The notes under the pieces: generated by a model
The model's input: the letters and a program-made list of their open reading frames with translations, nothing else
The model's database searches: none
Told to the model about the DNA's origin: nothing
Origin: Candidatus Kapaibacterium sp.
GTDB taxonomy: Bacteria; Bacteroidota; Ignavibacteria; Kapaibacteriales; UBA4661
Length of the DNA stretch: 64,000 nt
Direction of reading: 5' to 3'
NCBI GenBank assembly: GCA_004292595.1
Contig: RDXM01000087.1
Location: 1 to 64,000, forward strand
Shown here: in pieces, positions 5,967 to 60,135 of the stretch
Layout of the letters: each line of letters begins with the position of its first letter
Numbering within the stretch: the stretch's first letter is position 1
Position numbers and translations under genes: made by a program

Positions 5967-5993
5967 GAAGTATCCGAAAGAGATTGGCGTGAA

Positions 5994-6199
5994 GAAATTT
6001 GAGTATGAAATTTGAGCATGAAATTTGAGTATGATAGGACTTTCGCAAACCTCACAGGCAAGAATGACTGTGCCACTACAAAACTGATAGATACTGGCTT
6101 TGGTGGCACAGACATTCCTGTCTGTGAGGTTCAAAAGCACATTTTGCGAAAGTCCTATATGAAATTTGAATATGAAATTTGAGCATGAAACTTGAGCAT
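5994..6199. repeat. 13-bp tandem repeat split by a palindromic element
   Basis: Three copies of a 13-bp unit (GAAATTTGAGTAT and one-base variants) occupy 5994-6032 and three more occupy 6161-6199. Between them lies the 123-bp inverted-repeat element at 6035-6157. The simplest reading is that an existing tandem array was split by insertion of the element. Confidence 0.8.
6035..6157. mobile_element. MITE-like element, family A copy 1
   Basis: The 123-bp element starts TAGGACTTTCGCAAA and ends with the inverted complement TTTGCGAAAGTCCTA, giving TA at both borders. The core holds two oppositely oriented copies of the GTGGCACAGACA-type palindrome. Family A copies with the same ends occur at 11533-11655 and 12876-12999. 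It encodes no protein. TA borders suggest a Tc1/mariner/IS630-type mechanism, which is an inference because no transposase is present in the window. Confidence 0.75.
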
Positions 6200-6222
6200 T
6201 ATTCTCGCACATTTTTTCAACT

Positions 6223-8012: not shown

Positions 8013-8126
8013 TAAGGAACGGTTCAAAAATAAAGTACCACTTTTTTGGCTTCAGTGGCACAGACATTCCTGTCTGTGAGTCCTGATGCGGCTTTGAAGA
8101 CTCACAGACAAGAATGTCTGTGCTAC
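8013..8126. mobile_element. MITE-like element, family B, right end lost
   Basis: It begins TAAGGAACGG and continues through two inverted GTGGCACAGACA-type palindromes, as in the copies at 26119, 57719 and 59930. The expected complementary right end is missing, and the sequence runs directly into a family C element at 8127. This looks like a nested or abutting insertion that truncated the older copy. Confidence 0.6.
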
Positions 8127-8256
8127 TAGTAGTCCATCAAATGAGTTTTAAGAGGAGCAGACAAGAGTGTCTGCTCTACCGAAGCCAGTATTGACGGTAG
8201 CGCAGACACTCTTGTCTGCGCTACGAGACGCTAAAAACTTGTTTGACGGACTACTA
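8127..8256. mobile_element. MITE-like element, family C
   Basis: A 130-bp element with ends TAGTAGTCCATCAAA and its near-complement TTTGACGGACTACTA, again with TA at both borders. The core is a variant palindrome pair (GCAGACAAGAGTGTCTGC and GCAGACACTCTTGTCTGC). It lies between the convergent glycosyltransferase and pseudouridine synthase genes. The ends differ from families A and B but the core is clearly related. Confidence 0.65.
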
Positions 8257-11532: not shown

Positions 11533-11655
11533 TAGGACTTTCGCAGAATGTGCTTTTGAAGCTCACAGACAGGAATGTCTGTGCCACCAAAGCCAGTATC
11601 TATCAGTCTTGTAGTGGCACAGGCATTCTTGCCTGTGAGGTTTGTGAAAGTCCTA
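11533..11655. mobile_element. MITE-like element, family A copy 2
   Basis: Exactly 123 bp, as in copy 1. It begins TAGGACTTTCGCA and ends TGAAAGTCCTA, with one mismatch in the right arm. The core contains the same inverted pair of palindromes in the opposite overall orientation. It lies 25 bp after the NYN gene and just ahead of the RmlD-like reductase. Confidence 0.75.
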
Positions 11656-26118: not shown

Positions 26119-26274
26119 TAAGGAACGGGCAAAAATTAAGTAGATAAACTTTTTTGACTTCAGTGGCACAGACATTCTTGTCTGTGAGTGTTAGTGCGGG
26201 CTTCAGGCGACAAACACAGACAAGAAGTCTCAAGCCACTACTGACTTTAACCGCTTGTTTTTTTACGATTCCTA
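26119..26274. mobile_element. MITE-like element, family B (intact)
   Basis: A 156-bp element beginning TAAGGAACGGGCAAAAATTA and ending TTTTTTTACGATTCCTA, with TA borders and an inverted palindrome pair inside. The second palindrome is damaged (CAAGAAGTCTCAAGCCACT). It lies between the convergent pdxH and mnmE genes. The copy at 57719 is the same element in the opposite orientation. Confidence 0.75.
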
Positions 26275-26300
26275 AGAAGGCTTCGTTGAGGCAAGGTTTT

Positions 26301-30759: not shown

Positions 30760-30900
30760 CCATACAACAATCTTCAGTAGTGGCACAGACATTCTTGTCT
30801 GTGAGTGTTGGTGCAAGATTCAGGTGGAGAACACAGACAAGAATGTCTGTGCCACTGATACTTACTGGCTTCGGTAGCGCAGACACTCTTGTCTGTGCCA
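30760..30900. repeat. Palindromic repeat cluster after glnN
   Basis: It starts CCATACAACAATCTTC and contains a pair of CACAGACA-type palindromes followed by a third variant palindrome (GCAGACACTCTTGTCTGTGC). The left end resembles that of the element at 31171-31309, implying a common family E. Confidence 0.65.
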
Positions 30901-56686: not shown

Positions 56687-57721
56687 ATGTCTGCTATTCG
56701 TAATATTATGAAAAAAAGTACGGTAATGAATATGACCGTTGATACCGTGCGTTTTTTGCGTGCCATCCGCACCTATAATCAAGGTGGCGAAACCCCCATC
56801 GAAGGCGTACACAGCGCGAGACACCTGTTTTTTTCAACGAATCAGGCATCGCACAAAATTTTCACCTCCGTTCAAAACTTTCTCAGCCGTAATAACACCG
56901 TTGAGCTTGGTCAAAAACGAGGTATTTTGGGCGATATGAGCAAAGCTGCTGCACTCCAAGAAGCAACCCGAAATGTCCAAGAAGTAGGCTACCATATTTT
57001 TGATGCGAAACTCTCATCGGAAGAATGCGCCGAGCTTGTCGAATACGCACGAACAACGCCGAGCAAGCCTCGTATTGCAGACCAAGTTGAGAAAATTCCC
57101 TACGATAGAAATAATCTGAAGGCAAATTTGTATGATTTTGCGCCACAAGATTTGCTTGAAAATCCTATTATTCAGCGTTTAATTACCGATGAGTCTATCC
57201 TTACTTTTGCACGAGAGCTTCTGGGACCGAGTGTGCGTCTGCATAATGTAACAATGTGGTGGAGCAATGCTGATTTTCACAATGTTTCAAAAAATACCGC
57301 CGCGCAGCTCTATCATGTTGATATGGATACGATTAAATGGATAAAAATTTTCTTTTATTTGACCGATGTCGGTCCAGAGAATGGTCCGCATTGCTATATC
57401 GCAAAATCGCATCGCAACGCACCGAAAGCCGTGTACCGCGAGGGTCGTATTGAGGATGAAGAGATAGCAGCGCATTTTCCCAAAGAGGATATTAAAGAAA
57501 TAACGGGCGCAGCAGGAACAATTTTAGCAGCAGACACCGTCGGTTTGCACAAAGGCAAGCCGCTTACCAAAGGCGAGCGTTTGTTGTTTCAACTAACCTT
57601 TGGCATTACTGGTTTCGGATATGACCCGCCACGAAAAATTACGGTGAACGAGAAGTTTTCTCCAGAATTTTTAGCAAAAATTGACAAAAATCCAACCGTC
57701 TATAAAGGTGGGTATTTCTAA
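56687..57721 (+). CDS. Phytanoyl-CoA dioxygenase-family protein
   Basis: A 344-residue Fe(II)/2-oxoglutarate oxygenase. The facial triad is visible as YHVDMD (His-x-Asp) and the distal His in TVGLHKGKP, with the 2-oxoglutarate-binding Arg in KGERLLFQL. The N-terminal 80 residues are less conserved. The family hydroxylates small molecules, including sugars and lipids. Its stop codon TAA (57719-57721) is the first bases of a family B palindromic element; without that element its stop would overlap the start of the next gene (TAATG), so it belongs to the same operon as the sugar genes. Substrate unknown. Confidence 0.85.
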   Translation: MSAIRNIMKKSTVMNMTVDTVRFLRAIRTYNQGGETPIEGVHSARHLFFSTNQASHKIFTSVQNFLSRNNTVELGQKRGILGDMSKAAALQEATRNVQEVGYHIFDAKLSSEECAELVEYARTTPSKPRIADQVEKIPYDRNNLKANLYDFAPQDLLENPIIQRLITDESILTFARELLGPSVRLHNVTMWWSNADFHNVSKNTAAQLYHVDMDTIKWIKIFFYLTDVGPENGPHCYIAKSHRNAPKAVYREGRIEDEEIAAHFPKEDIKEITGAAGTILAADTVGLHKGKPLTKGERLLFQLTFGITGFGYDPPRKITVNEKFSPEFLAKIDKNPTVYKGGYF

Positions 57722-57873
57722 GGAATGGTAAAAAACAAGCGGTTAAAGTCAGTAGTGGCACAGACATTCTTGTCTGTGTTTGTCGCCTGAAGCCCGTACT
57801 AACACTCACAGACAAGAATGTCTGTGCCACTGAAGTCAAAAAAGTTTATCCATTTAATTTTTGCCCGTTCCTA
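57719..57873. mobile_element. MITE-like element, family B, inserted in a gene overlap
   Basis: A 155-bp element from TAAGGAATGG to CCCGTTCCTA, with TA at both ends and two inverted CACAGACA-type palindromes inside. It separates the PhyH stop codon from the GNAT start codon. Deleting the element and one TA joins the flanks as TTC-TAATG-CGC, regenerating both signals. Confidence 0.8.
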
Positions 57874-58395
57874 ATGCGCCTTCAAGGAAACCACATTTAT
57901 TTACGTCTGCTGACTCCCGAAGATGTCGGCAACGACTATGTTTCATGGATGAACGACAGCGAAATAACGCAGTACCTTGAAAGCCGTTGGTCGGCATACA
58001 CCCTTGAAACAGTACGTGCGTTTGTCAAAGCAATGTGCGACAGCCCGAAGGATTTTCTTTTTGGAATGTTCCTCAACGCAACGAATCAGCACATTGGGAA
58101 TATCAAAATTGGGAATGTGAACGCCATTCACCGGTACGGTGATGTTGGTCTTATTATTGGCGATAAGGCTTCGTGGGGCAAGGGCATTGCCTCCGAAGCC
58201 ATTTCTCTCGTTACCCAATACGGCTTTGAAGAACTCAATCTGCATAAACTTATTGCAGGAATGTATGAGCAAAATGTGGGTTCGTACAAAGCCTTTCTCA
58301 AATCTGGTTATCAGGATGCAGGACGCTACAAGGCGCATTTTTTCTATCAAGGGCGATATGTTGATGCTCGCTTCGTAGAAAAATGCCGCGAATAA
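57874..58395 (+). CDS. GNAT acetyltransferase, candidate PseH
   Basis: A 173-residue N-acetyltransferase of the RimJ/sugar-acetyltransferase type. The acetyl-CoA-binding loop is VGLIIGDKASWGKGIASEAI, followed by NLHKLIAGMYEQNVGSYKAF and SGYQDAGRYKAHF. Next to pseB, pseC and pseG, the obvious missing step is the N-acetylation of the 4-amino sugar by PseH; this assignment rests mainly on context. Its ATG lies directly at the right border of a palindromic element and would overlap the upstream stop if the element were absent. Confidence 0.7.
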   Translation: MRLQGNHIYLRLLTPEDVGNDYVSWMNDSEITQYLESRWSAYTLETVRAFVKAMCDSPKDFLFGMFLNATNQHIGNIKIGNVNAIHRYGDVGLIIGDKASWGKGIASEAISLVTQYGFEELNLHKLIAGMYEQNVGSYKAFLKSGYQDAGRYKAHFFYQGRYVDARFVEKCRE

Positions 58396-58411: not shown

Positions 58412-59932
58412 ATGACGAACACCAAACAGCACATTGCGCTTTTCACAACGCATCCTCTTTTCCAACGCCATTTTGCGACCGATTTAGAACTTATCCAAAA
58501 TCACGTCGATGCCGGAGATGATGTAACGGTACTCTATTGCGATGCCTCACTTCTTGCCTGTGATATTAACACCTATCATGAGCCTGCGCAGTGCTATCTT
58601 TGTCAAAAAACCCGCTCTATTGGCTTGTCGTTGCTGAATGATAATGGTAAGGGCAATATCACGCAACAGCAGTACTTGCGCCTGACAGAGCAAGACAAGG
58701 CGGACATTGCGACCTTGCGCACGACATTCACCAGCACCGCCGACCTCCAAGCCTACACCGTTGATAATTATGATATTGGCATGGCAGTGTTGTCGTCTAT
58801 TGTCAGCTACGTGATGAATGCAGATTTAGATGTGAAAGCGCACGCGCCTCTTATTCGGCACTACATTATTTCAGGTTTTATGGCGTATCGCTCGGTGCAG
58901 AATTTTTTACGCGAAACCAAGATTGACAAATTCTATTTGTTTAATGGTCGAATGGCAATCGTGCGAGCAATTATGCGAGCCTGCCAAAGCGAAGGCGTAC
59001 AGTTTACCATCCATGAATCGGGTGCGACGAATAATTCCTATTCGCTCTTTGACAATTCTTTGCCGCATAATATCCAGCATACAACCGATATGATGCGCCA
59101 ACACTGGGAGCAAGCCTCCACCGCCGCCAGCGAGCGATTGCGCATTGCCGAAGAATGGTATAAGAATCGCGCTCAAGGCAGGAAAGTAAACGGCTATTCG
59201 TTTATTGAACATCAACAGCAGGGTTTATTGCCATCGGATTGGAATCCGAACAAACAAAACATCGTCATTTTTAATTCCGCCGATTTTGAATTTGTGTGGG
59301 TGAGCGAAGAATATCAGCATCATATTTACCAAAGCCAATTAGACGGTATTACTTCTGTGATTGACTCACTTTTGCCGCATAAAGAACGCTATCACGTGTA
59401 TTTGCGCATCCACCCGAATCTCGCAAAAATTGAGAACGAACTACGCCCCTTGTTGCAATTTCAGAGCGAAAATCTCACGACAATTTTGCCGAATGATAAA
59501 ATCAGCAGCTACGCGCTTATCGAACACGCGAGCAAAGTTGTTACCTTTGGCTCAACAGTCGGTATTGAGTCCGCGTATTGGGGGAAACCTTCTATTTTGG
59601 GTGGGAAAGCACTCTATCAGCATTTAGAATCGGTCTATACGCCCAATTCCCATGCAGAAGTCATGGACTTGCTTTTACGCGAAGATTTACCGCCTCTGTC
59701 TTCGCAAGGAGCATTGCAATACGGATATTTCTACAATTCTTTTGGTATTCCTCTGAAAAATTATCAAGCAAAAAACTTCTTTGCAGGAACATACAAAAAT
59801 CAAAGCCTCTTTCCCAGTAAATGGCTGTTTCGATTGTTCACTGCGTACAAGCGTTTTGTACCCAAGTCCGTGCAGGATTCTATCAACAAAAACTCTATTG
59901 TACGTACCTTTGAGAACAATCTCAGCCGATAA
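58412..59932 (+). CDS. Capsule-type GT-B glycosyltransferase
   Basis: A 506-residue cytoplasmic protein with a two-domain GT-B look. The N-terminal half carries FTTHPLFQRHFATDLELIQN and a cluster of Cys residues in ACDINTYHEPAQCYLCQKTR; the C-terminal half has YLRIHPNLAKIENELRPLL and HASKVVTFGSTVGIESAYWG, the signature of capsule/Kdo-type transferases (KpsS/KpsC-like). The role is probably adding sugars to a surface glycan, perhaps the pseudaminic acid made by the neighbours. Spacing from the GNAT gene is 16 bp. Its stop TAA is formed by the left border of the next palindromic element. Confidence 0.7.
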   Translation: MTNTKQHIALFTTHPLFQRHFATDLELIQNHVDAGDDVTVLYCDASLLACDINTYHEPAQCYLCQKTRSIGLSLLNDNGKGNITQQQYLRLTEQDKADIATLRTTFTSTADLQAYTVDNYDIGMAVLSSIVSYVMNADLDVKAHAPLIRHYIISGFMAYRSVQNFLRETKIDKFYLFNGRMAIVRAIMRACQSEGVQFTIHESGATNNSYSLFDNSLPHNIQHTTDMMRQHWEQASTAASERLRIAEEWYKNRAQGRKVNGYSFIEHQQQGLLPSDWNPNKQNIVIFNSADFEFVWVSEEYQHHIYQSQLDGITSVIDSLLPHKERYHVYLRIHPNLAKIENELRPLLQFQSENLTTILPNDKISSYALIEHASKVVTFGSTVGIESAYWGKPSILGGKALYQHLESVYTPNSHAEVMDLLLREDLPPLSSQGALQYGYFYNSFGIPLKNYQAKNFFAGTYKNQSLFPSKWLFRLFTAYKRFVPKSVQDSINKNSIVRTFENNLSR

Positions 59933-60086
59933 GGAATGGTAAAAAATTAAGTGGTCAAAGTCAGTAGTGGCTTGAGAATTCTTGTCTGTGTTTGTCGCCT
60001 GAAGCCCGCACTAACACTCACAGACAAGAATGTCTGTGCCACTAAATATTTCTGAAGTTTATCCATTTAATTTTGAGCCTTCCCTA
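59930..60086. mobile_element. MITE-like element, family B, in a stop codon
   Basis: A 157-bp element from TAAGGAATGG to GCCTTCCCTA. One of the two palindromes is damaged (GTGGCTTGAGAATTCTTGTC). TA borders. It begins within the glycosyltransferase stop codon and lies between that gene and pseB. Confidence 0.75.
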
Positions 60087-60135
60087 ATCTCAGCAAATAA
60101 ATTCCATTTCACCTCATTTTGTGTCAAATATTCTC

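Follow-up and report, generated by a model that had tools for sequence, protein, structure and literature searches.

Closest described systems

Several described systems resemble the element analyzed here. In Coxiella burnetii, copies of QMITE1 and QMITE2 extend into the ends of several genes by a few bases (PMC5896051). Like our element, these are short hairpin MITEs at gene ends, but they belong to another family, and no empty TAATG junction is described in the available text of that report. The GTAG REPs, which often supply the TAG stop to flanking ORFs (PMC3733652), are likewise dispersed small repeats that lie next to stop codons or supply them. There the end of the repeat gives the stop, whereas here the original stop is restored by duplication of the target. 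REPINs, or GTAG-type REP dimers (PMC3116915, PMC3733652), share with the inner part of our element an inverted hairpin pair, a 5' tag, and dispersal without a shell. They differ in the tag, which is GTAG there and GTGG in the core here, GTGG being a reported variant of GTAG (PMC3733652); moreover, the hairpin pair here rides inside a MITE, and a RAYT gene flanked by the core repeat is not demonstrated.

The fourth relevant group, the ISAzo13 family (PF07592), is reported to generate 3-bp target-site duplications (PMC10045372). Its transposase-side end in genome G001, a relative of the same genus, matches the ends of our MITE, which likewise has 3-bp duplications, and the two right ends found there are followed by TAA and TTA, but the element considered here encodes no transposase, is 150 bp long, and has a hairpin pair as its interior. 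Thus MITEs overlapping gene ends are already known, and what is added here is a junction whose state before the insertion is cleanly seen, the number of stop codons among the insertion sites, the connection with ISAzo13, and the nested REPIN.

The PhyH–GNAT junction

The window, that is, the whole stretch of 64,000 nucleotides that was analyzed, is part of the 4.6 Mb draft genome G000 of Candidatus Kapaibacterium sp., an uncultured member of the Kapabacteria/Ignavibacteria. The gene of a PhyH-like dioxygenase (positions 56687–57721, forward strand; Pfam PhyH, E=1e-5), orthologs of which occur in five further genomes of the genus, ends in TTC TAA, with the stop codon at 57719–57721. As judged from the empty sites of genomes G005 and G003, this TAA is at the same time the left target-site duplication. 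It is followed by the 150-bp MITE body (57722–57871, forward strand), reading GGAATGG...CCGTTCC and bounded by imperfect terminal inverted repeats of about 28 bp, and by the right duplication, TAA at 57872–57874. The final A of the latter is the first base of the intact ATG (57874–57876) of a GNAT acetyltransferase gene (57874–58395, forward strand; Pfam Acetyltransf_3, 5.6e-23). These positions of the PhyH stop and the GNAT start agree with the original prediction. Deletion of the element together with one TAA gives the junction ATTTCTAATGCGC (also written TTCTAATGCGC). The prediction had removed the element with one TA; the unit is TAA, and the one-base overlap of the two genes that it expected does result.

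This overlap is observed in relatives without the element. In G005, which carries the closest PhyH ortholog (81% identity), the junction is ATTTCTAATGAAG, that is, GGATATTTC[TAA]TGAAGCTG or, in a longer form, GGATATTTC[TAA]TGAAGCTGCAC (JAAFIV010000003.1); the PhyH stop and the GNAT start share one base, and this empty site lies inside a long syntenic stretch and was confirmed on record L129. In G003 (59% identity) the junction ATTTCTAATGCGA, that is, GGATATTTC[TAA]TGCGACTG or, longer, GGATATTTC[TAA]TGCGACTGTGT, also has the one-base overlap and lacks the element. A normal spacer in element-free relatives would speak against a pre-existing overlap, and spacers between the PhyH stop and the GNAT start are indeed present in G001 (17 nt), G004 (20 nt), and G006 (11 nt). 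This objection fails because the closest relative and one more genome have the overlap. One further record, L130, contains the GNAT gene without an adjoining PhyH end. Since G005 and G003 retain the exact one-base overlap without the element, a pre-existing TAATG overlap appears to have been split by the element in the G000 lineage, and the precise insertion into a stop-start overlap that had been proposed from the window is borne out.

Both genes appear to remain under strong constraint. The dN/dS ratios relative to G005 are about 0.07 for PhyH and 0.06 for GNAT, these values being rough because dS exceeds 1.5.

Target-site duplication and parentage

The copy at 57719 on its own is compatible with a duplication of either TA or TAA. 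Full-length copies elsewhere have the structure TAA-GGAA...TTCC-TAA or, in many cases, TTA-GGAA...TTCC-TTA, and ATA, AAA, CAA, AAT, and CTA are also found on both sides. Exact 3-bp duplications were identified for 44 copies in four genomes of the genus, drawn from searches and fetched stretches, and are TAA or TTA in 33 of them. Because these flanks extend beyond TA, the duplication is 3 bp, preferably TAA or TTA, and the element itself is GGAATGG...CCGTTCC. The earlier assignment of TA targeting, with element ends starting with A, therefore has to be replaced. Its main consequence still holds: once TAA within TAATG is duplicated, the left flank of the element ends in TAA and the right flank begins with TAATG.

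The ends of the MITE point to an ISAzo13-type parent. At two loci of G001 (L117 and L200), the terminal sequence GGAACGGC..AAAAATAAG directly follows the C-terminus of a transposase matching DDE_Tnp_ISAZ013 (PF07592; E=1.6e-38 and 3.1e-36, respectively), and it is followed in turn by TAA and TTA. The shared termini, together with the 3-bp target duplication, are those expected of an ISAzo13-derived MITE, the comparison of termini covering right ends only, with no complete autonomous ISAzo13 copy seen. Of the two G001 elements, the right end and the C-terminal part of the transposase were recovered, and the left end is unseen because both contigs break inside the insertion sequence. A decayed, interrupted PF07592-like transposase fragment is present in G000 itself (L211/L046, C168). 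The latter fragment adjoins an interrupted gene for a DDE_Tnp_1-type transposase and integrase-like sequence.

Two other parents were considered. Subgroups of the IS5 family have TNA duplications and GGAAGG-type ends, so that both the termini and the 3-bp target of the shell could be read as a sign of IS5 ancestry. However, no ends matching the MITE were found at the transposase loci of PF01609 and PF13340 that were retrieved from ten genomes, whereas the ISAzo13 element does match, which makes an IS5-family parent improbable. Still less can be said for a TA-targeting MITE of the IS630/Tc1 type with ends starting with A. The 57719 junction, taken alone, would suit it, but the duplications include TTA, ATA, AAA, CAA, AAT, and CTA beside GGAA...TTCC rather than being 2-bp TA repeats, and the ends are common to an ISAzo13 element. 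The 3-bp duplications rule out a TA-target IS630 origin, and we give this reading hardly any credence. Thus the junction is very probably the product of a MITE with ISAzo13-type ends, a 3-bp duplication, and a preference for TAA or TTA, which inserted into an existing TAATG overlap.

Composite architecture

The element has the usual features of MITEs: it is short (about 150 bp) and non-coding, has terminal inverted repeats of about 28 bp and a target duplication, occurs in many copies, and is absent from the equivalent site of relatives (at 57719, G005 and G003). Its interior is of another kind. The core (57755–57830, forward strand) consists of two hairpins in inverted arrangement, GTGG-CACAGACATTCTTGTCTGTG ... 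CACAGACAAGAATGTCTGTG-CCAC. They are separated by about 28 nt, and each carries the conserved GTGG tag on its 5' side. The core thus has the inverted REP hairpins, 5' tetranucleotide tag, and dispersed occurrence of REPINs. Matches to Y1_Tnp, as candidate RAYT transposases, were found in each of five genomes.

The core also occurs without the shell. In G005, core-only copies of 76–80 bp (L163–L176) lose conservation at the GTGG tag. Since the core has dispersed independently of the MITE shell, the composite is, as far as can be read from its sequence, one small mobile DNA nested in another of a different kind, a REPIN-like core in a MITE shell. The reciprocal form was found as well. A shell without core, 76 bp long and flanked by a TTA duplication, is present in G001 (L152, positions 1632–1707 of contig C37), and another, with unequal flanks, in G000 (L052). 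The existence of the 76-bp core-less shell in G001 suggests that a REPIN-like core entered a shorter MITE.

Related repeats show further variation. Among the cores L140, L142, L147, and L155–L157 (G001 and G006), some contain an extra GAGCGCCGCGCTC-type palindrome inside a hairpin arm. At 5981–6215 in the window, short tandem units GAAATTTGAGYAT near 6000 and 6160 surround another hairpin repeat, which is related to 11533–11655 (96% inverted match). At 8030–8220 and 30779–30897, hairpins of two related kinds (CACAGACATTC.. and CGCAGACACTC..) stand next to one another in clusters of three.

Other copies in the window and the genome

Pattern searches of G000 gave 35 left-arm and 34 right-arm matches, many of them at breaks in the assembly that terminate contigs. 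Two further full copies lie in the window. One (26122–26272, reverse strand) has TAA on both sides, at 26119–26121 and 26273–26275. The other, of 151 bp (59933–60083, forward strand), is preceded by the TAA stop of a Capsule_synth-like gene (59930–59932), which forms its left duplication, and has one additional C before the TAA on its right. G005 lacks the element at the equivalent site, and in the relatives this gene stops at a TAA followed by ATT, the counterpart of which in the window lies beyond the second copy, at 60098–60100. The flanks of this copy contain a 13-bp near-duplicate, AATCTCAGCCGAT and AATCTCAGCAAAT, from which we infer that the insertion was probably preceded by a short tandem duplication or occurred together with it. 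Given this near-duplicate, the stop now used at 59930 is lineage-specific. The proposal that this copy, too, rebuilt a stop codon therefore holds only formally: an in-frame TAA does precede the element, but it has no counterpart among the conserved stops of the relatives.

Stop codons among insertion sites

Stop codons are over-represented about two-fold among the insertion sites. The flanks of every copy that has an exact duplication were rejoined by a script, ORFs were called mechanically, and the null set consisted of all identical trinucleotides on either strand of the same locus outside ORFs. Any overlap with a stop codon was found for 12–13 of 37–39 copies, compared to 4.5–7 expected (P from 0.0002 to 0.008 over all ORF thresholds tried), the calls being mechanical, the sample modest, and the expectation dependent on the threshold. 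Of the 39 usable copies, 10 have a duplication that coincides exactly with a stop codon, where 4.2 would be expected locally (P=0.002, approximately), in agreement with the tolerance of insertions at stop codons proposed in the original prediction, which had called for such a count. Comparison of flanks between copies revealed short and weak similarities only, and the copies were therefore counted as independent. The excess is best explained by a TAA-like target combined with survival of harmless insertions. It is as expected if insertions harmful to genes or promoters are lost, and active targeting of stop codons is unnecessary.

Possible effect on GNAT translation

At the PhyH–GNAT junction, the non-autonomous element would have been moved by an ISAzo13 transposase acting in trans, with the TAA of TAATG at 57719 as its target. 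The duplication leaves TAA to the left, where it serves as the PhyH stop, and, to the right, TAA followed by TG, which contains the intact ATG. Both proteins are unchanged, as had been predicted, because the 3-bp duplication of TAA restores both the stop and the start, and for the same reason the insertion may have been tolerated. The GNAT start, formerly in a one-base overlap, now lies 152 bp beyond the PhyH stop, and the RNA structure predicted for the region with the insert is very stable (-72 kcal/mol, z -8.2). The distance and the predicted hairpin would weaken or end close translational coupling between PhyH and GNAT, and loss of this coupling is a plausible outcome of the model. Shine-Dalgarno-like motifs precede 7 of 40 starts in the window, compared to 2 in a control stretch, and are thus only moderately common. 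No promoter or intrinsic terminator consensus was found inside the element on either strand. We rejected the possibility that the element adds coding sequence to GNAT: the GNAT frame is open through this copy, but it contains no ATG, GTG, or TTG before the known start, and most copies have no open frame.

Two further explanations concern placement rather than parentage. The stop-codon excess could be an artefact of gene calling or of the small sample, with neutral placement among non-coding TAA and TTA sites, as its two-fold size and an expectation that shifts between 4.5 and 7 with the ORF thresholds might suggest. Its persistence at every threshold tried and the result of the exact-register test argue otherwise, and we regard this explanation as doubtful, though clearly less far-fetched than the other. 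The latter supposes adaptive placement, the element being kept because it uncouples GNAT from PhyH and so adjusts GNAT expression. The highly stable structure predicted between two conserved genes would suit such a role, but the same family occupies many unrelated stop codons and intergenic sites, and no sign of selection was seen for the copy at 57722–57871. We consider adaptive placement very unlikely, and prefer survival of harmless insertions into a TAA-like target.

Biological significance

The junction offers a clean before-and-after view of a mobile element that splits a stop-start overlap and touches neither protein. The 3-bp duplication of TAA makes stop codons safe insertion sites, an effect that can be counted in any genome. 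In addition, a large MITE family tied to ISAzo13 and carrying a nested REPIN provides an example, open to testing, of how two types of small mobile DNA are joined in one element. We tentatively propose, as a broader possibility that falls somewhat short of an even chance, that a composite of an ISAzo13-type MITE shell and a REPIN is genus-wide and has stop codons as its preferred safe harbor, and that by repeated insertion at gene ends, with the stop rebuilt each time, it may have converted overlapping genes of operons into hairpin-spaced ones.
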